From a virus, in IMG/VR virus record IMGVR_UViG_3300009151_000317, positions 1 through 26,606 of that record: 26,606 bases of DNA; one strand, 5' to 3'. Below are positions 3,325 through 25,056 of this stretch, in pieces (within the stretch, counting starts at the first letter, position 1; every line of letters begins with the position of its first letter). Position numbers and translations under genes: made by a program. Below the pieces are notes generated by a model. It was not told where the DNA came from. It did no database searches and saw only the letters and a list, made by a program, of their open reading frames with translations.

Positions 3325-5186
3325 GAACCATGCCTCTATTTCCCATCTCCACTGAGTGGGTAGCCCCGGACACCTTCCCCAATTTATCAACCGCCAAGGA
3401 GATTGCAATTGATCTGGAAACTTCTGACCCGAACATGGAATCTTTTGGGCCGGGATGGCCCCGTAATGACGGCTTCATTGCTGGTTACGCTGTTGCTGTG
3501 GATGGTTGGAGCGGATACTATCCTGTTGCTCACGGCGGCGGTGGCAATCTTGATAAACGTCTTGTTGAACGGTGGGTAAAAGATGTACTCGCTACTGACG
3601 CTGACAAGATCATGCATAACGCGGCTTATGACTGCGGTTGGCTTAGGGCCTCTGGATTCACTATCAATGGCCGAATTTGCGACACCATGCTTGCCGCCCC
3701 GCTTCTCGATGAGAACCGCTTCTCGTACAGCCTCAATGCGCTTGGCTTCGATTACCTTAAAAAGGTCAAGTCGGAGGCCTTACTCAAGCAGGCAGCAGCC
3801 GACTTTGGCGTTCATCCCAAGAAAGAATTATGGAAACTCCCCGCCATGTATGTTGGGGACTACGCCGAGCAGGACGCGGCGCTGACCCTAGAGCTGTGGA
3901 AGCACTTCAAGATCAAGATGCGTCAGGACGAGGTTGAGTCAATCTTTGATCTGGAAACCTCCGTCTTCCCAATTTTGATGAACATGACCCTGCGCGGCAT
4001 CCGCTTTGACCGGGCTAAATGCGGCATGTTGATCGATAGGCTTATTGTGCGGGAACATCAGATTCACCAAGAGCTGAAGTCTGCCTGTGGAAAATCTGTG
4101 GACATCTGGGCTGCCCAATCAATTGCCATGGCCTTTGACAAGCTGGGCGTAGCCTACGGCAAGACGGCTGCCGGGGCACCGAGCTTTACCAAGAGTTTCT
4201 TGGATGACTGTGCACATCCTGTGGCTAAGTTGATTGTTGAGGCCCGCGAGACCAACAAGACCCACGGCACTTTCCTCCAGCCCTACATGGACTTCAGCAA
4301 GAAGACCGGCAGGATTCATCCGCACGTGAACCAGATGCGCAACGATGACGGCGGCACCATTACTGGACGGCTGTCCATGAACAACCCCAACTTGCAACAG
4401 GTACCGGCCCGCCACGAAATCATCGGCCCTATGGTGCGTTCGCTCTTTTTGCCGGAAGAGGGTGAGCTATGGGCAGCCAACGACTTCAGTTCCCAAGAAC
4501 CGCGCCTCTTGGTGCACTATGCAAGCCTCTTGGACCTGCCGAGTGCGTACAGGATGGTGGATGCATACCGTGATGACCCCAGCACCGATTTTCACCAAAT
4601 GATTGCCGACATGGCCGGGATCAAGCGAAAGCAGGCCAAGACCATTGGCCTTGGCTTGATGTACGGCATGGGCAAGGCAAAACTGGCTGCGGAGCTGGGA
4701 TTGGACATCGAAGAAGCGTCCGCCCTGATCAACACTTTCCACATTAAGGTACCGTTCCTTAAAGGCACCGTGAACGCGGTGATGAAACGGATTGAACACC
4801 CAGCGTCCGGCGGGTCCATCAGGACGCTACTGGGGCGCAAGTGTCGGTTCCCGCTGTGGGAGCCGATTGAGTGGGGCGTGAACAAGGCGCTGCCCTATGA
4901 GCAAGCGATCGTGGCCTATGGCCCAAGGATCAAGCGTGCAGGCACGTACAAGGGCTTGAATAAGCTGATTCAAGGGTCAGCCGCAGATCAGACCAAAGCG
5001 GCCATGGTGGCGCTCGCCAAGGCCGGGTTTGACCCCATCTTGCAAGTACATGATGAGCTGGCGCTGAGTGTCCGGAACCGGGATGAGGCACAGGCTGCTG
5101 CCGAGATCATGGCCAACGCTGTGCGCTTAGAAGTTCCCAGCCGCTGTGATGTGGAGATCGGCCCGAGCTGGGGAGAGGCGAAATAA
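3321..5186 (+). CDS. Family A DNA polymerase with 3'-5' exonuclease, 621 aa
   Basis: Replicative polymerase of the phage. The proofreading domain has Exo I DLE (D31, E33), Exo II HNAAYD (N100, D104) and Exo III YAEQD (Y181, D185). The polymerase domain has motif A NDFSSQEPR (D388, E393), motif B KRKQAKTIGLGLMYG (K440, Y448) and motif C QVHDE (H577-E579), plus LIQGSAADQTK near 549-559. No 5'-3' exonuclease domain is present, as is usual in phage enzymes. The position equivalent to Phe762 of E. coli Pol I is Leu444. The start is GTG 3321, overlapping the helicase stop, with AAAAGGA about nine bases upstream; ATG 3330 is an alternative. It is the last gene of the rightward replication block. Confidence 0.96.
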   Translation: MRTMPLFPISTEWVAPDTFPNLSTAKEIAIDLETSDPNMESFGPGWPRNDGFIAGYAVAVDGWSGYYPVAHGGGGNLDKRLVERWVKDVLATDADKIMHNAAYDCGWLRASGFTINGRICDTMLAAPLLDENRFSYSLNALGFDYLKKVKSEALLKQAAADFGVHPKKELWKLPAMYVGDYAEQDAALTLELWKHFKIKMRQDEVESIFDLETSVFPILMNMTLRGIRFDRAKCGMLIDRLIVREHQIHQELKSACGKSVDIWAAQSIAMAFDKLGVAYGKTAAGAPSFTKSFLDDCAHPVAKLIVEARETNKTHGTFLQPYMDFSKKTGRIHPHVNQMRNDDGGTITGRLSMNNPNLQQVPARHEIIGPMVRSLFLPEEGELWAANDFSSQEPRLLVHYASLLDLPSAYRMVDAYRDDPSTDFHQMIADMAGIKRKQAKTIGLGLMYGMGKAKLAAELGLDIEEASALINTFHIKVPFLKGTVNAVMKRIEHPASGGSIRTLLGRKCRFPLWEPIEWGVNKALPYEQAIVAYGPRIKRAGTYKGLNKLIQGSAADQTKAAMVALAKAGFDPILQVHDELALSVRNRDEAQAAAEIMANAVRLEVPSRCDVEIGPSWGEAK

Positions 5187-5670
5187 CCAATACGACTGGG
5201 GACTGGTGAGGAATTACCAGAGGTGGCGCAAGCCTTTCAGCGGCAACCACATGAACCAGTCAATCCCCATGCGTGTTAGTTGTTGATGTCTGGGCTTGAT
5301 ACCAGATTGACAGCCCACTAGCCGCTGTCGCCGGTCGGTTGAGCGTCCCCAGAGCCAACTCCAATTGTCCTATCAGTACCTTAGCAGTTCAGGCCATGCC
5401 GTATCCAGCAACCCTGCATCGAATGTTTCTGCACCGTACCTAGCGTGTCCATCCACGCCGCACCAACAAGACTGAGAACTGTTGCAGTTGCGACCTGCAT
5501 GGAGCACCGGGATGAAAGGCTTATTGACAGCTCCCCCGCGAGTGGCTTGTCCTTCAGAGGCCCAATGACCGGCTTCATACCCACCAATTCTCAGACTTAT
5601 TGGCCCGAGGAATATTTATACACCCTACCTCGGACTGGTGTTGTCAGTTTTCACCAACTAGGTCTCAACG
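5187..5670. other. Convergent non-coding gap between replication block and leftward operon
   Basis: No convincing gene was found. Transcription from both sides meets here, yet no hairpin followed by a T run was seen. Structures noticed: GGGGACTGGT near 5204-5213 can pair with ACCAGTC..CCCC near 5254-5267; GACAGC/GCTGTC near 5310-5330; and CCGAGG (5605-5610) with CCTCGG (5628-5633). Just after the polymerase stop, one frame reads a short peptide-like stretch (YDWGLVRNYQRW) ending near 5287, but it has no ATG or ribosome site. The segment could hold a structured RNA or a decayed gene. Confidence 0.5.
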
Positions 5671-6009: not shown

Positions 6010-6479
6010 CGCGCATTCCCTTGCAGCCGGTCAGCAACCAGTGTTGCGTACCCTGCAATATCGACCCAGTGATCCACCACGTCAGGGTTGCCGTTAACGA
6101 TGCGGCCCATTTTGTGCACGATCATCTCCAGCGCTTCCCACTGGTCATCGGCAAAGGCTTTGTTGTGCCTTGCTGCATGCTCGGCCAGAGATCGTTTTAA
6201 TGACTGCATGAGCGCAGCGCCGTCTTTGAACAAACCGTAGTCCTTGGCCCGGGTGTCCAAAACACTATTTACGCTGAAGTCCGGTAAACGTGGCTCAGGC
6301 ATCGGCACCATCTCAGGGGGTGCAAAGACACCTATCTGATTGTCTAGTGCCTTCTTGCGCAACTGGTAGCCCAGTCCCGGGGTAATGCCAAACTTCTTTG
6401 CCACGGTGCCTACCTTAGCGTTTGGGTGGCTCATGATGTACTCCATGAACTTTTGTGACTTGCTGCTTTGTTTTCTCAT
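6006..6479 (-). CDS. DUF6378-like protein with N-terminal HTH-like segment, 157 aa
   Basis: Residues about 75-157 match the phage domain DUF6378 as I know it: DTRAKDYG near the start, EALEMIVHKMGRI in the middle and DHWVDIAGYATL near the end. The domain is widespread in phages and its function is unknown. The first 45 residues (VGTVAKKFGITPGLGYQLRKK) look like a helix-turn-helix, so this may be a fusion of a DNA-binding part to DUF6378. A proline-rich linker (FAPPEMVPMPEPRLP) joins the two. It overlaps the next gene by ATGA and sits in the middle of a translationally coupled string. Confidence 0.8.
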   Translation of the reverse strand: MRKQSSKSQKFMEYIMSHPNAKVGTVAKKFGITPGLGYQLRKKALDNQIGVFAPPEMVPMPEPRLPDFSVNSVLDTRAKDYGLFKDGAALMQSLKRSLAEHAARHNKAFADDQWEALEMIVHKMGRIVNGNPDVVDHWVDIAGYATLVADRLQGNAR

Positions 6480-6709
6480 TCCTCTTCATCCTCTTCGTGT
6501 TGATCATGACCAAAATTGGTTAAAAAAAGATACTGCCTGATACTGCCTTCCTCTAAGCCCTTCTTATGGGACTTTTCCAATATTTCTAGATTTACTTTCT
6601 CGAACGGATTCCACGTGCTTTTGTCGATGCGTTTTGAATCGGACAAGAGCTTCTTCTTCCATTTTTTCTGGGGGAACAATGGTTTCTTCCGTTGTAAATT
6701 TATGGCCAT
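6476..6709 (-). CDS. Doubtful small gene overlapping the zinc-ribbon gene, 77 aa
   Basis: This frame ends in an ATGA overlap with the DUF6378-like gene, exactly like the other junctions of this operon, and fills an otherwise unexplained 84-base gap. It begins at ATG 6709 after GGGAG, inside the zinc-ribbon gene in another frame. The overlapped part is very basic and looks like a shadow; the unique part is helical and ends in an acidic tail (HEEDEEE). It may be a real overprinted gene, or the displaced end of the zinc-ribbon protein after a frameshift. Confidence 0.3.
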   Translation of the reverse strand: MAINLQRKKPLFPQKKWKKKLLSDSKRIDKSTWNPFEKVNLEILEKSHKKGLEEGSIRQYLFLTNFGHDQHEEDEEE

Positions 6710-6797
6710 TTGCGCACTCCCTTCGTCTCCTGTATCTAACAGGGGTTGTTCTCGTTTCAAGGATCACGGACCACGCAGCGCATTCGGGGCAGTTCAT
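6564..6797 (-). CDS. NrdR-like zinc-ribbon microprotein, 77 aa
   Basis: The N-terminus MNCPEC..(24 residues)..RRRECANGH is a four-ligand zinc ribbon like that of the NrdR regulator N-terminal domain (CPxC, then C and H/C), followed by KFTTEE. NrdR's ATP-cone is absent, so this is a stand-alone zinc ribbon as found in many phages, possibly a nucleic-acid or transcription-related factor. The start ATG 6797 overlaps the upstream stop (ATGA) and has GGAGG four bases upstream; the frame is open further upstream but that stretch belongs to the neighbouring gene. The C-terminal 30 residues are charged and helical. Confidence 0.8.
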   Translation of the reverse strand: MNCPECAAWSVILETRTTPVRYRRRRECANGHKFTTEETIVPPEKMEEEALVRFKTHRQKHVESVRESKSRNIGKVP

Positions 6798-6955
6798 CTT
6801 GCCTCCATGCATTTGTGTTTCTCGCCTGCTGTTCGTGTTAAGAAAATAAGCTGGCACTTGGTGCACCTGTACACCAACCCCTGCTCAACGATTGTCCTGC
6901 GCTCACCGCGCTCCCCGCGTAACTTGCCAAAGAATGTTCTGATTGCTTCAAGCAT
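6794..6955 (-). CDS. Very short Cys/His zinc-finger-like protein, 53 aa
   Basis: Translation shows a basic N-terminal helix (MLEAIRTFFGKLRGERGERR) followed by YRCTKCQLIF and HKC, a plausible C2HC zinc site (C31, C34, H47, C49). The start ATG 6955 lies eight bases inside the previous gene's end and is preceded by AAGGAG at seven bases; the stop overlaps the zinc-ribbon start (ATGA). The perfect fit into the chain of overlaps is the main support, since the gene is short. Function unknown; RNA or protein binding is likely. Confidence 0.75.
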   Translation of the reverse strand: MLEAIRTFFGKLRGERGERRTIVEQGLVYRCTKCQLIFLTRTAGEKHKCMEAR

Positions 6956-7151
6956 TCTGTTGCTCCTTCCATCGTTTACACATCTGCATCACTGTCTTGG
7001 TTTTCTTTTTCTTGTCGCACACTGCGCTCACGGACTTGTACTTCGCCTTGGCTTGCAATGACAGGGGTGCTGGAGGCGGTGGTGGGTCCGGGAATAGACC
7101 GTTCCAGCCTACCGTACCCAATACAGCACTGAGAATTAGTCGGTCAAACAC
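6948..7151 (-). CDS. Small protein with hydrophobic N-terminus and proline linker, 67 aa
   Basis: The start is GTG 7151, overlapping the upstream stop (GTGTTTGA), with AAGGAG seven bases upstream. The N-terminal 20 residues (MFDRLILSAVLGTVGWNGLF) could be a signal or membrane anchor; then comes a run of prolines (PDPPPPP) and a lysine-rich C-terminal half with two cysteines. It may be a membrane-anchored or exported peptide. No family was recognised. Confidence 0.65.
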   Translation of the reverse strand: MFDRLILSAVLGTVGWNGLFPDPPPPPAPLSLQAKAKYKSVSAVCDKKKKTKTVMQMCKRWKEQQNA

Positions 7152-7680
7152 TGTTTTTCTCCTTAATTTTGGCTTGCAAGGCTTCCCCAAACGCAAGCTG
7201 CCCCTGCATCTGATGACCACCACGATGTTCTTTTAAGATTTCAAAATAAACATTCTGAATTTGTGTGCGAGTCAAGTCAACCCATGTGCGCTGTGGTGGG
7301 GTGATGTTGTTCTCGCCGATGTAGGCGATCAACGGGACTTTCTTACACTCTCGCCCAGTGACCAGGTTTTCTTGCAAAGATTCAATGACGGCTTCAAATC
7401 GTTCAATCTCAGACTCTCCAAACTCTGCTCCTTCAAGATTGTCCTCAATTCCAGCAAGTGTTAGTTCGCCAATGCAAATGTAGTCTGACAAGTCTTTTTT
7501 GGCGGCAGTCCATTGGGCAAAATGCAAAGCATCTGCCACAGGCTCTTGTTCTGGCTGTGTCAAGGCTTCTTTGATGGCGGCAATTGCTTTGTCAAAAGCG
7601 GGTCGCTCATATTTCAAGCGATAGCTATTTACACAGTCTTCCAGCAATGGAAGCGCCAGCTTCAATGCTTCTTGTGTCAT
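7144..7680 (-). CDS. Unknown phage accessory protein, 178 aa
   Basis: The N-terminus has a helical segment that I associate with accessory proteins of phages of Burkholderiales (AIAAIKEALTQPEQEPVA, about residues 32-49). The middle is acidic and helical (EIERFEAVIESLQENL). A later part, PPQRTWVDLTRTQIQNVYFE, resembles short repeated modules in phage hypothetical proteins. ATG 7680 overlaps the upstream stop (ATGA) with GGAGG seven bases before it. No enzyme motif is visible. The host hint is an inference from memory. Confidence 0.75.
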   Translation of the reverse strand: MTQEALKLALPLLEDCVNSYRLKYERPAFDKAIAAIKEALTQPEQEPVADALHFAQWTAAKKDLSDYICIGELTLAGIEDNLEGAEFGESEIERFEAVIESLQENLVTGRECKKVPLIAYIGENNITPPQRTWVDLTRTQIQNVYFEILKEHRGGHQMQGQLAFGEALQAKIKEKNSV

Positions 7681-7892
7681 GCTTCCGCCTCCACGGGTAC
7701 GTCACGCCATTCGCCACGATTTGGTGACGGCAAAGGGTTTCCATCTTTATCCTCAACATGAATCGCAAGCACAATGTTTTTGTTTTCCCACCATTGCTGG
7801 AGGATGCGTATTTTTTGATACGTAGGGTTGCAAAACAAATCAACAGTAACTTTTTCACGCTCAACAAAGCGCAGCTTATTTGTTGGTGTCAT
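7677..7892 (-). CDS. Unknown small protein, 71 aa
   Basis: Soluble, with a basic beginning (NKLRFVEREKVTV) and a central IRILQQWWENKNIVLAI. It is preceded by AAGGAG at seven bases and joined to both neighbours by ATGA overlaps. No family was recognised; the position alone suggests an early accessory role. Confidence 0.7.
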   Translation of the reverse strand: MTPTNKLRFVEREKVTVDLFCNPTYQKIRILQQWWENKNIVLAIHVEDKDGNPLPSPNRGEWRDVPVEAEA

Positions 7893-8104
7893 GTGTAGTC
7901 TCCTTCCTGTGTATGTTCTGTCAGTCTGTTCTCAAGGCGCTTGATCCGCTTCTCGTTGTACTGCACGATGGATACGGCGTACTCCACGGCAGACTCAGCC
8001 TCCAGCTTCTTCTGATGCGCTTCACGCAGTTCCTTGGCGATGATCTCCCGCAGGGTGCGGGAGCGCAAAATCTCACGGATAAATTTACTTACCGTGTCTC
8101 TCAT
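7889..8104 (-). CDS. Small coiled-coil protein, 71 aa
   Basis: Almost entirely helical and highly charged, with heptad-like spacing from residue 15 to 62 (LREIIAKELREAHQKKLEAE and EKRIKRLENRL). GGAG stands five to six bases before the ATG, and the gene overlaps both neighbours by four bases. It probably forms a dimer or binds a partner protein; no family was recognised. Confidence 0.7.
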   Translation of the reverse strand: MRDTVSKFIREILRSRTLREIIAKELREAHQKKLEAESAVEYAVSIVQYNEKRIKRLENRLTEHTQEGDYT

Positions 8105-8355
8105 TTGTTCTCCAATTGTGGTTGCGGTAGTTTGTCAACGAATGCCTGACCCATGCGTATGCTGTCTGCATTCCAAATATCCATGTCGTTGAGAAACGCT
8201 TCTTCGGTTTGTCCGTGGCAGTAAACACGAAACCGCTTTTGATAATTGTTGATGTCGTATTCAGACTCCATGCGCTCGACAGGTTTGTTGCAGACTGCGC
8301 ACAACGGAAGACCATGCAAGGCCAAAGCAAACTTGTTTTGCTCAGTGAGTTTCAT
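8101..8355 (-). CDS. Small CxxC protein, 84 aa
   Basis: The segment LPLCAVCNKPVERM has a CxxC, and a later YCHG could add a further Cys/His ligand, so a partial zinc-binding knuckle is possible. The rest is acidic and helical. AAGG is six bases upstream of the ATG and the overlaps are ATGA on both sides. No family was recognised. Confidence 0.7.
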   Translation of the reverse strand: MKLTEQNKFALALHGLPLCAVCNKPVERMESEYDINNYQKRFRVYCHGQTEEAFLNDMDIWNADSIRMGQAFVDKLPQPQLENK

Positions 8356-8675
8356 TTGTTGCCTTCCGTTGCGATTGATTCAGTGCGATTACGAGTGCAG
8401 TTCTTGCCACAAGATTCTGTGTAATGGCGCTCGGTATTTACCTGCTCACCACATCGTGTGAAGTAGTGCGTACCATCGTCCACAAACCTGTAGACCTTGC
8501 AACCATCTGCTTCGGACAAGAGTCGCGGCACGCGCATCTCAGCTTTTTGTTCATCGCTTGGGCCAAACGTTGACTGCAATACCCAAATAATGCCAAGAAT
8601 AAAACCAAGCGCAAGTAGTGCTGCAAGAGTCACAAAGCCTATGATTGTGAGGTGGTCCAAAAGATCGTCAATCAT
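8352..8675 (-). CDS. Membrane-anchored Cys-rich protein, 107 aa
   Basis: One transmembrane segment near residues 10-33 (IIGFVTLAALLALGFILGII) is followed by a soluble tail containing GCKVYRFVDDGTHYFTRC and three further cysteines. The motif resembles short phage proteins with a GC.VYRF...HYF..C signature (DUF4884-like), usually next to a signal or membrane helix. The tail would face the periplasm if the N-terminus is inside, where the cysteines could form disulfides. Ribosome site GGGAG at eight bases; ATGA overlaps. Family assignment is tentative. Confidence 0.7.
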   Translation of the reverse strand: MIDDLLDHLTIIGFVTLAALLALGFILGIIWVLQSTFGPSDEQKAEMRVPRLLSEADGCKVYRFVDDGTHYFTRCGEQVNTERHYTESCGKNCTRNRTESIATEGNK

Positions 8676-8926
8676 TTCTTCATCTCCCGAATGTAGATAG
8701 CCAGCGAACTGATGGTGTCTTTGCCAAAGCCTTTGAGCTTTTCAACATGCAGCGCCACTTCTTCAATCACGCCGTTGCGAAGTTCGTTAAAGAACTCCTG
8801 CTGGGTCTTGGCTTTCATTTGCATCTCTTCATCAAACGCTTTCTTTACCCTGTTCATACTCTCAACATGGTTGTAGTCTTCCAAGGTCACATAGCTGACC
8901 TCTGTTGGTTTGTTAAATTCAGTCAT
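8672..8926 (-). CDS. Unknown small helical protein, 84 aa
   Basis: Predicted to be helical and charged (NRVKKAFDEEMQMKAKTQQE), without cysteines or membrane segments. The ribosome site before ATG 8926 is weak (GAAAG), so expression probably depends on coupling to the upstream gene whose stop it overlaps. No family was recognised. Confidence 0.65.
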   Translation of the reverse strand: MTEFNKPTEVSYVTLEDYNHVESMNRVKKAFDEEMQMKAKTQQEFFNELRNGVIEEVALHVEKLKGFGKDTISSLAIYIREMKK

Positions 8927-16311: not shown

Positions 16312-17784
16312 GTGAACACCGCCACGCCACAAGATGTCGAAGCCGAACGCCTCCGACTCGAACTCCGCCTCCAATTATTGGATGCCCAAGAGAAAGCCAA
16401 CAGCACCTTTCTTGACTTCTGCAAATACGTGTGGCCCGAGATGCTCGTTGGGGAACACCACAAGATAATTGCGGAAGCCTTTGACCGCGTCATTGCTGGT
16501 AAATGCAAGCGCCTGATGATTGCCATGCCTCCTCGGCACGGAAAGTCCCAGCTCGGCAGCTACCTGTTCCCGGCCTATGTCATGGGAAAAATCCCCGACA
16601 GCAAGTTGATCGTTGGTTCGCACACCGCCGAACTTGCCCAACGCTTCGGTCGCATGATCCGTAACCTTGTAGAAGAAGACCGTTACAAGGAACTCTTTCC
16701 CAATGTTGGCCTGTCTGTTGACTCCAAGGCTGCCGGTCGGTGGAACACGAAGGGCGGCGGTGAGGCGTTCTTCATTGGTAAGGGCGGTGCCATGACCGGA
16801 CGCGGCGGCAACATCGTGATCCTTGACGACATCTTGGATGAACAAGACGCTTTGTCCGACACCGCGATGGAGAACACGTGGGAGTGGTACACGTCCGGCC
16901 CCCGGCAGCGGTTACAGCCCGGTGGTTCAATCATCGTCATCAACACACGCTGGAAGACTGACGACCTAAGTGGTCGCTTACTTCGTCAGCAGGGTCAGTT
17001 GAAGTCTGACCAGTGGGAGGTAATCGAGTTCCCTGCCATATTGCCCAGCAACAAACCCCTGTGGCCGGGATACTGGAGCCTTGATGAGTTAGAGAAGGTC
17101 AAGGTTTCCATTGGCATGAAGAAGTGGAATGCCCAGTGGCAGCAGGCCCCGACGAACGATGAGGGTGCCATTCTCAAACGGGAATGGTGGCGCAAGTGGA
17201 AGTCTGAGACTCCTCCGCTCTGTGAGTATTTGATCCAGACGTACGACACGGCGTACAGCAAAAAGGAGAGTGCTGACTTTTCTGTAATCAGCACGTGGGG
17301 CGTGTTTATCCCCAGTCTTGACTCGGGCCCGAACCTGATGTTGTTGAACGTGAAGAAGGGTCGGTGGGACTTTCCGGAACTCAAGCGCATTGCCAAGGCT
17401 GAGTACATGTACTGGAATCCTGACAATGTCCTGATCGAGGCCAAGGCGACTGGCACGCCGTTGCAGCAGGAGTTGCGCAAGATTGGAATCCCTGTGACTA
17501 TGTACAGCCCCGGCGGACGACGCAGTGGCCAAGACAAGATCAGCCGGGCCAACGCGGTCGCTCCTTTGCTGGAGTCTGGAATGATTTGGTATCCGGAAGA
17601 TTTGGAGTGGGCGCAGGAAATGGTGGAAGAGTGTGCTGCTTTCCCCAATGGTGCACATGATGATCAGGTGGACTCAGCGGTCATGGCTTGGATGCGCTTT
17701 CGTCAGGGCAACTTTATATCTTTGCTGGATGACGATTTGGAGCAGCCGGAACCTGCGGATGACAAGTACGAATACTACGGTTGA
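16312..17784 (+). CDS. terL: Terminase large subunit, 490 aa
   Basis: DNA-packaging ATPase and nuclease. ATPase part: Walker A PPRHGKS (residues 73-79), Walker B IVILDD (168-173) and the coupling segment INTRWKTDD (210-218). Nuclease part with an RNase H-like fold: D312 in QTYDTAYS, E376 in VLIEAKATG, and D450/D451/D454 in GAHDDQVDSA. The C-terminal half matches the TIGR01630-type phage terminases. Length is normal. The start is GTG 16312 with AAGG seven bases upstream; no in-frame ATG occurs before the conserved part. The next gene overlaps or closely follows. Confidence 0.96.
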   Translation: MNTATPQDVEAERLRLELRLQLLDAQEKANSTFLDFCKYVWPEMLVGEHHKIIAEAFDRVIAGKCKRLMIAMPPRHGKSQLGSYLFPAYVMGKIPDSKLIVGSHTAELAQRFGRMIRNLVEEDRYKELFPNVGLSVDSKAAGRWNTKGGGEAFFIGKGGAMTGRGGNIVILDDILDEQDALSDTAMENTWEWYTSGPRQRLQPGGSIIVINTRWKTDDLSGRLLRQQGQLKSDQWEVIEFPAILPSNKPLWPGYWSLDELEKVKVSIGMKKWNAQWQQAPTNDEGAILKREWWRKWKSETPPLCEYLIQTYDTAYSKKESADFSVISTWGVFIPSLDSGPNLMLLNVKKGRWDFPELKRIAKAEYMYWNPDNVLIEAKATGTPLQQELRKIGIPVTMYSPGGRRSGQDKISRANAVAPLLESGMIWYPEDLEWAQEMVEECAAFPNGAHDDQVDSAVMAWMRFRQGNFISLLDDDLEQPEPADDKYEYYG

Positions 17785-17858: not shown

Positions 17859-20800
17859 ATGGCCCAAGAATCGATCGACGACCTCATCAATGCTGTGATG
17901 CAAACGGAGTCCCGTGGCAAGCGGTACACGGACGGTAAGCTTACCACCTCGCCTAAGGGTGCGGAAGGCGAGATGCAGGTCATGCGAAAGACGCAACGCG
18001 ATCCGGGCTTTGGTGTCAAGCCTGCTCAAGACAACAGCGCAGAAGAGATTGCCCGCGTAGGCAAGGATTACTTGAAGGCTATGGTCAACAAGTTTGGGGA
18101 CAAGGATACTGCGCTTGTTGCTTACAACTGGGGTCCGGGCAACACGAACAAATGGCTGGCAGCCGGTGCGGACCCGACTAAATTGCCAAAGGAAACGCAG
18201 GCTTATCTGGCCAAGGTCAACAGCAATCTTGGCACGGCCACCGCTTCTACCCCCTCCGCTCCCACTTCTCCTGCTTCTCCTACACAAACCACTTCTACTG
18301 CCAAATCTGCCCGCGTAGCTGCGGCACCGGCTTCTGTCACGGAGCATCCAATGCTGGCCATGTTGGGCCCGAACTATCAGGCGGCGTTGGCGGTAGCCAT
18401 GCTGGCGGATCAGGGCGAGAAGGAAGGCAAGAGTGAGGATGATGAAAGCGAATCGGAGAAGATGATGAAGGAGTACATGGCTACCCCTGCGCGGCCCGTG
18501 GCCCTTGCTCAGGCAGACATGAGCTATCAGTCTCCGTTTCCGGAAATACAAAAACCACAGCAACAACAACCTGTAGGTATGGCAGAAGGTGGTGATGTGT
18601 CTGCCCCTGATATTGGTGACGCGCCAGCACGGGAAGATTTAGCTCGCATGTTTGCCAATCAAGAGATGGTTGCGGGCATGGGGGACATGACTACCGCAGG
18701 AGTGGGCAGAAATTTTGATGTGGGCGGCGGTAATTTAAATATTGGCGCTGCCCTGACAAGCATGACCAGAGATGAAAAGCAAGAGCTGGCCAAGAATTTG
18801 ATGGCGGCGTACACGCACAATATTGGCAACGCAACCGTTGGCATGAATGTCAACAAGCCGCTGGATATTCCGGCGGATGTGTACCAAGCAGCTTTGATGG
18901 GTTCCATGCCAATCGGTCAGGGCCGTGCAATGATCTCGGCCCAAGGAACGCGGGTCAATGGCCAAGACTATCCAGTCAATCAGATGATTGGGTATGAGCA
19001 TCCGGTGGGCCCCGGTCAATTAAGCTTTAATGCTTCTCAGATGAAAGATTTTCCTGAGAGCAGGCAATACCAATTGCAATACCGCATGCCTATTGGTCGC
19101 GCTGACGGCGGAGATGTAGCGCCCCCCGTTACTGAAGAAGACCCCCTCCGAAACTTGCCGCCCGCCTCCCCGCAAGATACAACTGCTATGGACAAATATA
19201 GGCTGGCTCTTTGGGCGGAAAAAAACAATCCAGACATGTTGACTACCAATAACAATGAGCTTGCAGCATTATTGATGCGAGGCCGTAGGGATAGTCGAAC
19301 ATACGATGATCGGTCAGAAGAAGAGCCAAGATTGGAGCAAAGAAGAAACGTAAGCCCTTATAACTCCCCCGAAGAATTTCAAAATATGCCGGGTGACAAC
19401 ATTTTTGGAATGCGACGTGAAATGCCTCGCCCTGAAAGCTTTGATTACCCCCGACTTGGAAGAGGGGATGATTACCGTAGGCCAGAACAAGAAGCACGAC
19501 AAAAGCGGGATGAGATTACAAGACAAGCGATGGAACTAGGGTTTCCTTTTAGAGGAACGTATTACGCAAATGGCGGTGTGGTGCACCGGGCCGGTGGCTC
19601 TCCTGACACGGGCGAGCGCATGACTCCTCAGCAGATCGAGCAGCTTGCTGCCGACCAAGTTGCGCTCAATACGTACCAACCGCCTACTGCCCGCCCATCT
19701 ACGGGCATGAACAGAAACATCACGTACCGCAATGGTGAAGACACGGCAGCGGTCATGCAGGGCGCGGCGAATTTACCGTATGACTTGTTGGGAATTCCTC
19801 GCGACATTCCCAACATGATCATGACACCGTTTGGCTATGGGGTGGAAAAGCCAGTGATGGGTTCTGATTGGCTCAAGGAACAGGCCACTGCGGCAGGTAT
19901 TCGTCCACCTCCTTCTACAAACCCAACTCTTCGCGCTTTTCATAATGTTGGCGAGGTAAGCGCTGGACTTGTAAACCCCGGACCAATCGCCGCCAAGGTT
20001 GGCCAGACAGCGGAAAAAGCTATTGCCACGGGCGGCAAAACGGTAGCCAAAGAAATGTTACGCGGCCTAGAAGGCCAAGGCGTGTTGGCTCCAATCAGTC
20101 CGCAGGACTCTATCATGTACGCGGTCAAACCAAAAGGCGGCGCGTTCACAGGAACACGTGAATATGAGTATCCTCGTCCGGGCACAGAAGGAAGAGTGGC
20201 GTTTGAGGATTCGGTAACAAGCCTTATTAAGTCCGGTGAGCTATTGCCCGACCTGCGTACTGATCTGCCAATACCAATGCAATCAAGAAAAGCGCTTGAT
20301 GGCTGGGTAGAGGACAAGATTGGAAGCTACATCCGCAAAGACATGGCAACAAAAAATGACCCTTTTGTCAAAGCTGTGGACGAAGGCAAAAAATTACATT
20401 TGCTTGAAGATTTGGGCGATATAAAGCCAATGAGCGGTCTTGCAAGAAGAAGGGACAGAGAAGGGTTTCCGGCATGGGGTTCTGCAAAAACACCGTTAGG
20501 CAGGAAACTAGAAAAACAAATTGATTCTTCTATGTGGTCAGAAGACATTGGAGATGTGAATGCCTACAACATGCATCCCTTGATGGAGGGCTTCAGAGAT
20601 ACCAACCCCAACATGCCGATATATACCCCCGGCTCACAACTTGCAAATAGGATGCAGTTTCCTAAGATGATTGAAGGTATGGAAGACATGTTAGCGGGAA
20701 GGAAGTACACCGCATACGGAGACATTTCCGTCCCAATCCCACAAGAATATCAACTTACCCCTGAAAAGCTACAAGGCATGTCCCCCGTCCAAGCTTCGGA

Positions 20801-21638
20801 GAAAGTTGCCTTGTTTAATCAATGGCGGGATGGAGAACGCCAGATACAAGCAGCCCAGTATTTGGACAAGCATGGCAACGTCTACAAAAAATACGACAAC
20901 GGTCGCAAGTGGATTGCTATGGACGATCTTGCACAAGAACCAAAACAATCGGAGTTGGTGCAACAAGCAGGTTGTTTAGGGGGCTGGTGTACAAAGGATG
21001 AAAGTTTTGCCTTAAGCAATGGTAGTGGGGATAATCGCCTGCATCTTTTGTTTGATGAAAAGGCCACACCAAAAGTCCAGCTTACCGTGACAACTGTGCA
21101 ACCCAACACTTCTGATTTTATTACGCACATGGATGATGCCCAGTACAACGCCATGCTGGGCAAATACGGGGAAAGAATACGCAATTACACCGCCTACGAT
21201 CCTTTTATTGAATCCACCCCAGAATATAATCAATGGCTCTCTACCCAAGGCCCAAAACAAGAACGAATCACGGAGATACAAGGGCAGTTTGGTAGAAACA
21301 ACATAGCAGACGACCCAAATTCTGGAAAATTTTTGAAAGAAGTTCAAGACTTTGTTAAAAGCAAGGACTGGGGCACTGTTGCAAACTTAGACGGCATCAA
21401 CATGATTGATCTGGATGACTATCTGCCCACGCTATCTCGCGGTTTGAATCCAGAACAGACAAATCAGTTGAGTGACTTCATGAAAAGTTTAAATGGCGGA
21501 TCGCGGTACGCGGATAAACAGGAAGGCGCAAATATCTTGAAAGAAGCAAGCCTGCGCGTATTCCGCCCTTTGTCCCCTCCCAAACACGCAACTGGTGGTA
21601 TGGTAGAACGTCAGGCCAGCACTGCTCGATATATTTAA
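17859..21638 (+). CDS. Giant virion-type protein: lytic transglycosylase plus degenerate PcfJ-like region, 1259 aa
   Basis: The N-terminal 100 residues form a soluble lytic transglycosylase domain: catalytic Glu17 in MQTESRG, GEMQV (37-41) and AYNWGPG (88-94). It would cut peptidoglycan during DNA entry. A low-complexity Pro/Ala/Thr/Ser linker follows, then glycine-rich parts with repeated short motifs (MAEGGDV, RADGGDV, YANGGVV, HATGGMV). Around residues 1010-1200 lies a region resembling the PcfJ-like domain of polyvalent proteins: GCLGGWC (1038-1044), later ITEIQGQFGRNN and an end like LKEVQDFVKS. The usual His of HCVGxY is Gly here. ATG 17859 has GAAGGA upstream; a TTG at 17781 overlapping the terL stop would add 26 residues. 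It is probably an injected internal protein. Confidence 0.8.
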   Translation: MAQESIDDLINAVMQTESRGKRYTDGKLTTSPKGAEGEMQVMRKTQRDPGFGVKPAQDNSAEEIARVGKDYLKAMVNKFGDKDTALVAYNWGPGNTNKWLAAGADPTKLPKETQAYLAKVNSNLGTATASTPSAPTSPASPTQTTSTAKSARVAAAPASVTEHPMLAMLGPNYQAALAVAMLADQGEKEGKSEDDESESEKMMKEYMATPARPVALAQADMSYQSPFPEIQKPQQQQPVGMAEGGDVSAPDIGDAPAREDLARMFANQEMVAGMGDMTTAGVGRNFDVGGGNLNIGAALTSMTRDEKQELAKNLMAAYTHNIGNATVGMNVNKPLDIPADVYQAALMGSMPIGQGRAMISAQGTRVNGQDYPVNQMIGYEHPVGPGQLSFNASQMKDFPESRQYQLQYRMPIGRADGGDVAPPVTEEDPLRNLPPASPQDTTAMDKYRLALWAEKNNPDMLTTNNNELAALLMRGRRDSRTYDDRSEEEPRLEQRRNVSPYNSPEEFQNMPGDNIFGMRREMPRPESFDYPRLGRGDDYRRPEQEARQKRDEITRQAMELGFPFRGTYYANGGVVHRAGGSPDTGERMTPQQIEQLAADQVALNTYQPPTARPSTGMNRNITYRNGEDTAAVMQGAANLPYDLLGIPRDIPNMIMTPFGYGVEKPVMGSDWLKEQATAAGIRPPPSTNPTLRAFHNVGEVSAGLVNPGPIAAKVGQTAEKAIATGGKTVAKEMLRGLEGQGVLAPISPQDSIMYAVKPKGGAFTGTREYEYPRPGTEGRVAFEDSVTSLIKSGELLPDLRTDLPIPMQSRKALDGWVEDKIGSYIRKDMATKNDPFVKAVDEGKKLHLLEDLGDIKPMSGLARRRDREGFPAWGSAKTPLGRKLEKQIDSSMWSEDIGDVNAYNMHPLMEGFRDTNPNMPIYTPGSQLANRMQFPKMIEGMEDMLAGRKYTAYGDISVPIPQEYQLTPEKLQGMSPVQASEKVALFNQWRDGERQIQAAQYLDKHGNVYKKYDNGRKWIAMDDLAQEPKQSELVQQAGCLGGWCTKDESFALSNGSGDNRLHLLFDEKATPKVQLTVTTVQPNTSDFITHMDDAQYNAMLGKYGERIRNYTAYDPFIESTPEYNQWLSTQGPKQERITEIQGQFGRNNIADDPNSGKFLKEVQDFVKSKDWGTVANLDGINMIDLDDYLPTLSRGLNPEQTNQLSDFMKSLNGGSRYADKQEGANILKEASLRVFRPLSPPKHATGGMVERQASTARYI

Positions 21639-21647
21639 GGACACAAC

Positions 21648-24194
21648 ATGCCCATCGAAAAACGAATCACAGGCGACAACTACTCCGACGAGGGTACGGA
21701 TGTCGAGATTGAATCACAAGACGCGCCGGAGAATTTACCCGACGTTGAAATCCACTTTGATTCAGAAACTGGTGACCTGCTGGTAAATCTGGGCAAAGAA
21801 GACGACGCTGACGTGCCTTTCGATGCCAACTTGGCCGAGGTCGTCGATTCGGACATCTTGGGCAAGATCAGCGGTGAGTTGATGCTGTTGTTTGATGCCG
21901 ACCGTTCTTCACGCAAAGAATGGGAAGACCAGTACAGCAAGGGCATGAAGCTCTTGGGTTTCAACATTGAAGAGCGCACCAAACCGTTCAAAGGCGCAAG
22001 TGGCGTGAGCCACCCCTTGCTGACCGAGAGCATCGTGCAGTTCCAGTCCACTGCGCTCAAAGAACTCTTGCCTGCTGAAGGCCCCGTGCGCACGCAGGTG
22101 CTGGGCAAGGAAACACGCGAGAAGCTCATGCAAGCCGACCGTGTTCGGGACTTCATGAACTACCAGATCACTTCGGTGATGGAAGAGTACACACCCGATT
22201 TTGACCAGCTCCTGTTCTACACGGGCTACGGCGGCTCAACCTTCAAGAAAGTCTACTACGACGAGAACAAGGGGCGCATGACCAGTGCGTTGGTGCTGCC
22301 GGACAACCTGTACATCCCGTACTGGGGTAGCGCTGTCATGAGCGAATGCGAGCGCATCATCCACCGCGTTCCAATGTCCACAAACAACTACAAGAAAGCG
22401 GTTGTGCGCGGTCAATACTTGGACGAGGCACAGCCTCAATCCTTGAATGACAACGGCCAAAGCACCATCAAAAAGGCCGTGGACAAAGTCGTGGGCATGT
22501 CGCCCAACGCTGAGGAAGAAGAAATCAGCCTGCTTGAGTTCCAGTTGGATTACGACTTGGAAGGCTTTGAGCACAAGGATGAAGACGGTGAAGTCACCGG
22601 CATTGCGCTACCCTACATCATCACGTTGGACGAGAACACTGGCGATGTCGTCGGTATCCGCCGCAACTGGAAAGAGGGCGACAAGCTTTTCAAGCGCAAA
22701 CAGTACTACGTCCACTACCGCTTGGTCCAAGGCCCGGGGGCCTATGGCCTCGGCTTCTTACAACTGGTTGGTGGCCTGTCCAAGACCGCCACTGCTGCGC
22801 TACAACAACTGCTGGATGCCGGTACGCTGGTAAACCTGCCAGCGGGCTTCAAGGCCAAAGGCGCACGGATCATGAACGATGACGTGCCAATCCAACCGGG
22901 TGAGTGGCGCGATATGGACGCAGGCGGCGTGGAGCTTCAGTCCTCCTTGCTTCCCCTGCCGTACAAAGAGCCCAGCCAAACGCTCATGGCGCTGCTTGGA
23001 TTCTGTGTGGAAGCTGGCCAGCGCATGGCCAGCATCTCTGACATGCAGGTTGGCGACAGCAACCAAAACGCTGCGGTGGGAACGACGATTGCTCTGCTTG
23101 AAAAGGGCAGCTCGGTCATGTCGGCCATCCACAAGCGGTTGCACTACAGCCAAAAGCTGGAGTTCCAACTCTTGGCCAAAGGTTTTGCCGAGTACCTGCC
23201 GGATGAGTATCCGTACGATGTCCCCGGTGAGAGCCGCGTCATCAAGAAAAAGGACTTTGACGACCGCATCGACGTGCTGCCCGTCTCTGACCCCAACATC
23301 TTTTCCGTGGCCCAGCGCATCACCATGGCGCAGACCCAGCTACAACTGGCTCAGAGCGCCCCGCAGATGCACAACATGTACGAAGCCTACCGTCGCATGT
23401 ACGAAGCGATTGGCGTGCGCGATATCGATCAGATTTTGAACAGCCAGAACGTGGACAAGCCCAAGGACCCGGCCAGCGAGAATGCGCAGGCGCTGGACGG
23501 CTCACCATTGAAGGCCTTTGCTGGCCAACAGCACGATGCCCACATCCTGACGCACATCTTGTTTGGCATGTCACCCATGATGCAAGGCATGCCAAACGTG
23601 GCGGTCAACTTGCAAAAGCACATTTTTGACCACATCCGTTTGAAAGCGGAAGAGGACACCGAAGTCGATCTGTTCCAGCAGTACGGCACCGATCCGGAAA
23701 AGATGGTGTCTGCCCTGCAACGCGAAGCAATGATCGCTACAAAGGTTGCCCAAGGCTTCCAAGAAGTCAAGCAATTGCAACAGCAATTGCAAGGCACCCC
23801 ACCTGCTGATCCGCTGGTTGACCTGAAGAAACAGGAGTTGCAGCAGAATGCTCAGAGCGATCAGGCAAAAAATGCCATCGATCAGGCCAAATTGCAGCTT
23901 GATCAGCAGAAAGAACAGGCTGATCAACAAGAAGGTCAGGCCAAGTTGATGCTTGAAGTGCAGAAATTGCAGCATGGCCAACAAAAACACGCTTTAGACA
24001 CGTCGTTTAATGCCCACAAGCACCATGTTGACACCAATTTTGGTGCCCACAAGCACCATGTTGACACCAATTTTGGTGCCCACAAGCATCACGTCGACAC
24101 GATGCAAGCGGCGCAGAAGGACAACACGGACGCTTTGCTTCAAATGCAACAGCAACAGCAGCAACAAGGAGCCCAAAATGCGGAACAAGCCTAA
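21648..24194 (+). CDS. Portal protein, 848 aa
   Basis: Forms the ring at the head vertex through which DNA is packaged and ejected. The sequence resembles the large portal proteins of aquatic phages: an acidic N-terminus, SGVSHPLLTESIVQFQSTAL, FYTGYGGSTFKKVYYD, the stem/wing part with NQNAAVGTTIALLEKGS, and DILPVSDP-like VLPVSDPNIFS. The last 150 residues are glutamine-rich and contain three tandem 11-residue His-rich repeats (24006-24104), ending in a poly-Q stretch. AAGGA precedes the ATG. It follows the giant protein by nine bases and carries the start of the next gene within its end. Confidence 0.9.
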   Translation: MPIEKRITGDNYSDEGTDVEIESQDAPENLPDVEIHFDSETGDLLVNLGKEDDADVPFDANLAEVVDSDILGKISGELMLLFDADRSSRKEWEDQYSKGMKLLGFNIEERTKPFKGASGVSHPLLTESIVQFQSTALKELLPAEGPVRTQVLGKETREKLMQADRVRDFMNYQITSVMEEYTPDFDQLLFYTGYGGSTFKKVYYDENKGRMTSALVLPDNLYIPYWGSAVMSECERIIHRVPMSTNNYKKAVVRGQYLDEAQPQSLNDNGQSTIKKAVDKVVGMSPNAEEEEISLLEFQLDYDLEGFEHKDEDGEVTGIALPYIITLDENTGDVVGIRRNWKEGDKLFKRKQYYVHYRLVQGPGAYGLGFLQLVGGLSKTATAALQQLLDAGTLVNLPAGFKAKGARIMNDDVPIQPGEWRDMDAGGVELQSSLLPLPYKEPSQTLMALLGFCVEAGQRMASISDMQVGDSNQNAAVGTTIALLEKGSSVMSAIHKRLHYSQKLEFQLLAKGFAEYLPDEYPYDVPGESRVIKKKDFDDRIDVLPVSDPNIFSVAQRITMAQTQLQLAQSAPQMHNMYEAYRRMYEAIGVRDIDQILNSQNVDKPKDPASENAQALDGSPLKAFAGQQHDAHILTHILFGMSPMMQGMPNVAVNLQKHIFDHIRLKAEEDTEVDLFQQYGTDPEKMVSALQREAMIATKVAQGFQEVKQLQQQLQGTPPADPLVDLKKQELQQNAQSDQAKNAIDQAKLQLDQQKEQADQQEGQAKLMLEVQKLQHGQQKHALDTSFNAHKHHVDTNFGAHKHHVDTNFGAHKHHVDTMQAAQKDNTDALLQMQQQQQQQGAQNAEQA
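24006..24104 (+). repeat. Three 33-bp tandem repeats in the portal gene
   Basis: Units begin at 24006, 24039 and 24072 and encode FGAHKHHVDTN or close variants. The first two units are nearly identical at DNA level; the third has several silent changes, suggesting recent expansion under protein-level selection. Confidence 0.9.
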
Positions 24195-24582: not shown

Positions 24583-25056
24583 ATGACAGAAGTTACTGCA
24601 TTGGAACAAAAATGGGCACAGGAAGCGGAAGACGAAGCCGCTCAGGCGGCATCTAATGCCGTTGCGGACGCAGCAGCGTCCGTGATAGCCCGAAAAGAAC
24701 ACGATGATCAGGTAGAGAACATTCGGGAACACCTTCCCAAAGCCACAGGCTGGCGTTTGATTGTTTTGCCCTACCGTGGCGCACGCAAAACCAAGGGCGG
24801 CATTGAATTGTCGGACCAAACCCTTGAGCGCCAGCAACTTACAACCACATGTGCATACGTTTTGTCTGTGGGCCCTCTGGCCTACAGAGACGAAGTCAAA
24901 TTCCCCACCGGCGCTTGGTGCAAGGAGGGGGATTGGATCATTTTTGGCCGTTACGCGGGTGCGCGTATGGCCATTGACGGCGGCGAAATTCGGATTCTGA
25001 ACGATGACGAAATTCTGGCCACCATAAACGACCCAGAAGACATTCTGCACATGTGA
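24583..25056 (+). CDS. GroES-like co-chaperonin, 157 aa
   Basis: Residues about 52-150 read like chaperonin-10: GWRLIVLPYRGARKTKGGIEL, VLSVGPLAY, WCKEGDWIIFGRYAGAR, IRILNDDEILATI. The mobile loop that touches GroEL would be near KTKGGIELSD (69-78). The first 50 residues are a helical, Ala/Glu-rich extension absent from bacterial GroES. The likely role is to pair with host GroEL for folding the capsid protein, as known for T4 gp31. It is placed directly before the scaffold gene. GAGGA is close to the ATG. Confidence 0.88.
   Translation: MTEVTALEQKWAQEAEDEAAQAASNAVADAAASVIARKEHDDQVENIREHLPKATGWRLIVLPYRGARKTKGGIELSDQTLERQQLTTTCAYVLSVGPLAYRDEVKFPTGAWCKEGDWIIFGRYAGARMAIDGGEIRILNDDEILATINDPEDILHM

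Follow-up and report, generated by a model that had tools for sequence, protein, structure and literature searches.

An SLT transglycosylase domain joined to a PcfJ-related core in a phage protein encoded between the terminase and portal genes

The open reading frame and its SLT domain

The window, the whole stretch of DNA analysed here, is the 26,606-base virus record IMGVR_UViG_3300009151_000317, and the virus it encodes is a virus of bacteria. A long open reading frame (ORF) on its plus strand is separated by 74 bases from the gene of the terminase large subunit (TerL) and by 9 bases from the portal gene. The neighbouring genes and the features of the encoded protein are listed below.

16312..17784, plus strand: TerL, directly upstream (PHROG 38, E 7e-112)
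17859..21638, plus strand: whole ORF, 1259 aa, polyvalent-type protein in the TerL-portal interval (uninterrupted translation; synteny in relatives)
17880..18164, plus strand: SLT lytic transglycosylase domain, residues 8-102, catalytic Glu17 present (Pfam PF01464, E 2.2e-11; Slt70 match)
18579..18599, plus strand: GGxV border motif MAEGGDV, residues 241-247 (motif scan)
18600..19097, plus strand: module without profile match, residues 248-413, flanked by two GGDV motifs (Pfam, PHROG and NCBIfam searched)
19098..19118, plus strand: GGxV border motif RADGGDV, residues 414-420 (motif scan)
19563..19583, plus strand: GGxV border motif YANGGVV, residues 569-575 (motif scan)
20106..20870, plus strand: N-terminal part of the conserved core, residues ~750-1004, KPKGG ... 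WRDGERQ ... KKYDNGRKW (alignment with relatives; AlphaFold model of 793-1252)
20871..21458, plus strand: PcfJ-related domain of the GGWCT class, residues ~1005-1200 (hhalign, alignment, Foldseek viral library)
20970..21041, plus strand: class signature GCLGGWCT-x9-GSGDNRL, residues 1038-1061, in place of HCVGGYC (common to 58 viral contigs)
21267..21293, plus strand: ITEIQGQFG, residues 1137-1145, counterpart of IxQIKGKxN, fourth strand and loop (alignment, model)
21342..21356, plus strand: VQDFV, residues 1162-1166, a helix common to the PcfJ-type cores compared (alignment)
21585..21605, plus strand: C-terminal GGxV motif HATGGMV, residues 1243-1249 (motif scan; kept as GGMVERQ in the clade)
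21648..24194, plus strand: portal protein, directly downstream (PHROG 1216, E 5.5e-41)

The N-terminal domain is, as judged from its sequence, an intact SLT transglycosylase. Its match to the Pfam SLT profile scores 43.8 bits against a cut-off of 21.3, and all three SLT motifs are intact (E17 in MQTESRG, GAEGEMQV and AYNWGPGN), so that the claim of an earlier note, that a complete SLT domain with E17 opens a 1259-residue protein, holds over a translation free of stops. Slt70 was obtained as a weak PDB sequence match of this domain (E 0.002), and PHROG endolysin families likewise match it.

Residues 248-413 gave no match in Pfam, PHROG or NCBIfam, and an iterated search from residues 247-416 was discarded because it drifted into the SLT domain. 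The GGxV motif recurs near module borders in the window protein and in most relatives, and with the pattern used for these borders it was absent from the portal; such a short motif could serve as a signal for processing or docking. Elsewhere in the window, positions 24583-25056 encode a co-chaperonin GroES (PHROG 3188, E 8e-18), which has the same placement in phage DSL-LC04, and positions 40-1578 encode a primase resembling the AEP domain of TOTE conflict systems (PF22548, E 3.5e-12), with helicase and family A DNA polymerase genes downstream of it.

The PcfJ-related core and the GGWCT class

The C-terminal part of the protein had no direct match in Pfam (searched to E 10), NCBIfam or PHROG. 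The PcfJ profile PF14284 missed the window protein even at E 10, and it did match other core-bearing relatives, 8 of 16 in one set and 25 of 37 in another. When residues 851-1259 were used as a tblastn query against 50,697 phage records, exactly one match was found (E 4e-5), in DSL-LC04, a record that is itself a metagenome assembly. The matched gene, of 825 aa, is annotated as a PcfJ-like protein, also lies between TerL and portal, carries HCVGGYC and matches PF14284 at E 5.2e-9. Profile-profile comparison by hhalign linked the window clade to the HCVGGYC clade (E 1.9e-26 over 352 columns) and the latter to seven plasmid PcfJ proteins (E 1.1e-16); the direct comparison of the window clade with plasmid PcfJ reached only E 0.06. 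An AlphaFold model of residues 793-1252 (pLDDT 86, pTM 0.78), in which the GCLGGWC motif falls within the least certain stretch, had several PcfJ-like proteins among its best Foldseek matches in the viral library (E 5e-18 to 6e-12). Residues ~1005-1200 are therefore homologous to PcfJ, the link running through the syntenic HCVGGYC relatives and the model. The earlier note had proposed a PcfJ-like region at about residues 1010-1200 and a structural check against PcfJ-like folds, and both the sequence chain and the fold search agree with it. The two C-terminal elements that it had pointed out are also in place: the stretch ITEIQGQFGRNN begins at residue 1137 of the 1259-aa protein, and VQDFV follows.

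In a quick tree the GCLGGWC clade formed one group with support of 99 on a very long branch, and because of this length its placement inside PcfJ is unsure. No relative emerged when bacterial and archaeal genomes were scanned with a profile, and a Pseudomonas plasmid PcfJ used as query had no match in viral contigs.

GCLGGWC (residues 1038-1044, DNA 20970-20990) stands where HCVGxYC was expected, and the motif histidine is missing from all six clade members and from the wider GGWCT class, just as the earlier note had read from the window alone. In the numbering of the L074 crop, His116, Thr145 and Glu147 are invariant in 61 of 61 sequences of the other forms compared, among them one phage protein found by a plasmid PcfJ query; the Thr and Glu belong to the strand that follows the motif. 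In the window clade the three are replaced together in six of six members (His by Gly, Thr by Gln, Glu by Thr), as are Arg136 by Phe and Tyr121 by Trp, and the change from Thr to Gln is fixed across the GGWCT class.

A DNA-pattern search recovered the signature GGWCT-x9-GSGxNRL from 58 viral contigs (43 distinct domains), always in long ORFs. The pattern itself fixes part of this signature; therefore only residues outside it are independent evidence, and W1018, G1038, A1051, Q1074 and I1137 are invariant there. The window clade is under purifying selection, with dN/dS of about 0.06-0.19 in the least saturated pairs for the PcfJ-related part. By its alignments, GGWCT...GSGxNRL is a separate, constrained class with invariant residues of its own. 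The term degenerate, which had been attached to this region, does not suit a class that is spread over 58 contigs and kept by purifying selection.

Further arrangements of the core were observed. In two phages a single protein contains two complete cores (L047:1989-6395 and L048:2319-6692), the first core with GGWCT...GSGPNRL and the second with HCVGGYC or HSVGGYG. The first tandem copy is the nearest to the window core, which scores 102 bits with it and 87 with the second copy of L047. In a third, split-site form (L024, L025, L026, L049, L057 and others), HSVRGY is followed by an insert of ~30 residues and then GYGLGGW or GYGHGGW; His, Thr and Glu are retained and Cys is changed to Ser.

The fold of the core offers a lead. 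A model of a canonical PcfJ domain (mea4489f882a7) reached pLDDT 94, and among the PDB matches listed for this and the window-core model, those of better probability were almost only GNAT acetyltransferases, with ESCO1 best (prob 0.92-0.93) and NAT10 and GCN5 also present. None of the GNAT matches reached E <= 0.001, TM-scores were low, and at the sequence level no GNAT profile was matched. The order of helices and strands is similar to that of GNAT, and in the models this order, together with the QIKGKGN loop that follows the fourth strand in canonical members, would fit the GNAT pyrophosphate loop. A GNAT relationship of the PcfJ fold, as suggested by these models, is a lead and not a result.

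A conserved slot with exchangeable modules

In the first set of relatives, TerL precedes and portal follows the gene in 57 of the 66 loci with both flanks visible. For the GGWCT class, counted with near-duplicates included and wherever the respective side was visible, 43 of 43 loci had TerL upstream, and 46 of 46 had portal downstream. Modules around the core vary. They include a muralytic domain of SLT or of another, SLT-like type, HExxH modules (at most two), and ART-PolyVal and LPD23; the last two are fused to the same core in relatives, which bears out the polyvalent-type setting that had been suspected.

The window protein belongs to the GC subclass of the GGWCT class. Where the 5' end is visible, an SLT-profile match was present in 15 of 19 GC-subclass ORFs, two of the 15 being weak and of the second SLT-like type; three further ORFs were assigned to this second type by eye, and one (L175) has neither. 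HExxH modules, one or two each, occur in 12 of the 19, in about four kinds and in shuffled order. The kinds HELEHS, HEGQHAIQ, HETEHLLARQ and HEMTHAADRQ stand singly or paired between the muralytic domain and the core (for example L153, L168, L174, L179, L189, L194 and L195). The window protein has no HExxH module, and the GK and GR subclasses have neither the muralytic N-terminus nor an HExxH module.

Most of the wider family lacks SLT. Several canonical relatives encode it as a separate gene distant from the PcfJ gene, and two such separate products match the family 'internal virion protein with endolysin domain' (phrog_342). In L061, SLT lies inside a separate 737-aa protein (3448-5658) just upstream of the PcfJ-type gene (6452-8899).

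Because modules vary around one core, the window protein and its relatives can be regarded as polyvalent proteins, a group marked by two or more domains of disparate activity and a virion-gene neighbourhood, both of which are found in the window protein. The interval between TerL and portal is a slot where modular, probably virion-borne proteins get reshuffled.

Possible roles and comparison with known systems

From the gene position and the SLT fusion, we infer that the protein would be packaged and ejected. The polyvalent protein would be expressed from the head-gene cluster, take its place inside the virion or at the portal vertex, and leave with the genome on ejection. The N-terminal SLT domain would then cut murein for DNA passage, and the remainder would enter the cytoplasm, where the C-terminal GGWCT-class core may affect the host, through binding or through a changed chemistry, since the His/Thr/Glu trio invariant in the other PcfJ-type sequences compared is missing. 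We consider this scheme the best of those weighed and, as a whole, about as likely as not. It agrees with the presence of the catalytic Glu, with a muralytic N-terminus that is near-constant in the GC subclass and swapped between two SLT-like types, with the TerL/portal slot, with the occurrence of ART-PolyVal, LPD23 and HExxH on the same core, with the low dN/dS and joint replacement of His, Thr and Glu, and with the resemblance of separate SLT proteins of canonical relatives to an internal virion protein with endolysin domain. Against it stand the lack of SLT in most of the wider family and the prospect that the core is an assembly part. What the core does can only be guessed, because no biochemical activity of PcfJ has been established in the literature searched.

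This prospect, that the constant core is a part for head or portal assembly or for encapsidation and anchors variable cargo (SLT, zincin, ART) to portal or capsid, is a serious possibility, albeit somewhat unlikely. The core is constant, its modules vary and it almost always lies beside TerL and portal; loss of the canonical His, Thr and Glu fits a non-enzymatic role, and in the N4 virion RNA polymerase the C-terminal region is required for encapsidation (PMC5512222). However, PcfJ domains are widespread on plasmids, away from any phage head cluster, a distribution that implies a use apart from virions, and two cores of different classes in one protein would be unnecessary for anchoring. An endolysin for lysis from within, with the fusion incidental, would explain why PHROG endolysin families match the SLT domain too, but it is improbable because DSL-LC04 encodes an M15A-like peptidase and a holin elsewhere; the fusion is also stable across the GC subclass within the head cluster.

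Two further alternatives were rejected. Decay of the PcfJ region into a non-functional remnant would account for the missing His, Thr and Glu and for the failure of Pfam to recognise the domain, but it is very hard to reconcile with a signature kept in 58 contigs, invariant residues outside the search pattern, dN/dS well under 1 and a confident fold model. An ADP-ribosyltransferase-type fold unrelated to PcfJ can be given practically no credence: ART-PolyVal domains do occur in some relatives, though as separate modules, the top viral matches are PcfJ-like, and for neither model do the 50 PDB matches listed name an ADP-ribosyltransferase. What stands of the earlier interpretation is the SLT fusion, the PcfJ homology and the loss of the histidine; the degenerate label and the ADP-ribosylation-type fold are abandoned.

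A more far-reaching proposal, which we put forward tentatively and think rather doubtful, is that PcfJ represents an unrecognised, very divergent GNAT-like fold of phages and plasmids, of which the GGWCT class would be a second form whose ligand site has been rebuilt. Virions would deliver this form either instead of the canonical one or in tandem with it, fused to exchangeable wall-cutting and zincin modules. Although genes for PcfJ are a recurrent feature of plasmids and phages, no function has been reported for them in the literature searched; the GGWCT class now supplies residues by which a function can be tested, Gln1074 and GSGxNRL in this class and His, Thr and Glu in the canonical form. 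The PcfJ gene adjoins a gene annotated as the Cas9 inhibitor AcrIIA9 family in four plasmids of those fetched (L031, L034, L035 and L037), a neighbour that hints at a counter-defence link for PcfJ.

PcfJ-like phage proteins as such are already known and present in UniProt and GenBank; in the open-licence papers searched, no description was found of the GGWCT class, of the TerL-X-portal slot or of proteins with both forms in tandem. With the PcfJ-like proteins (PF14284; PcfJ of plasmid pCF10; proteins annotated as PcfJ-like from DSL-LC04 and from uncultured Caudovirales phages in UniProt), the window protein shares a homologous domain with common helices and strands and the VQDFV/IxQIxG region, and with that of DSL-LC04 an identical gene position. 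In contrast to the canonical members, it has Gly, Gln and Thr for His, Thr and Glu and its own GGWCT-x9-GSGxNRL, and is missed by the Pfam model. T7 gp16-type internal virion proteins are long phage proteins with an SLT domain at the N-terminus. The window protein is likewise long with an N-terminal SLT domain, but its gene lies between TerL and portal, its remainder is PcfJ-related, and phrog_342 is matched only by the separate SLT proteins of relatives. The polyvalent proteins (Iyer et al., 2017; PMC5512222), whose late-gene neighbourhood was read as a sign of virion inclusion and whose description does not name PcfJ in the main text, differ in that the recognisable parts of the window protein are SLT and the PcfJ-related core only; they resemble it in being large, multidomain and encoded in a virion-gene neighbourhood, and its relatives carry ART-PolyVal, LPD23 and HExxH.
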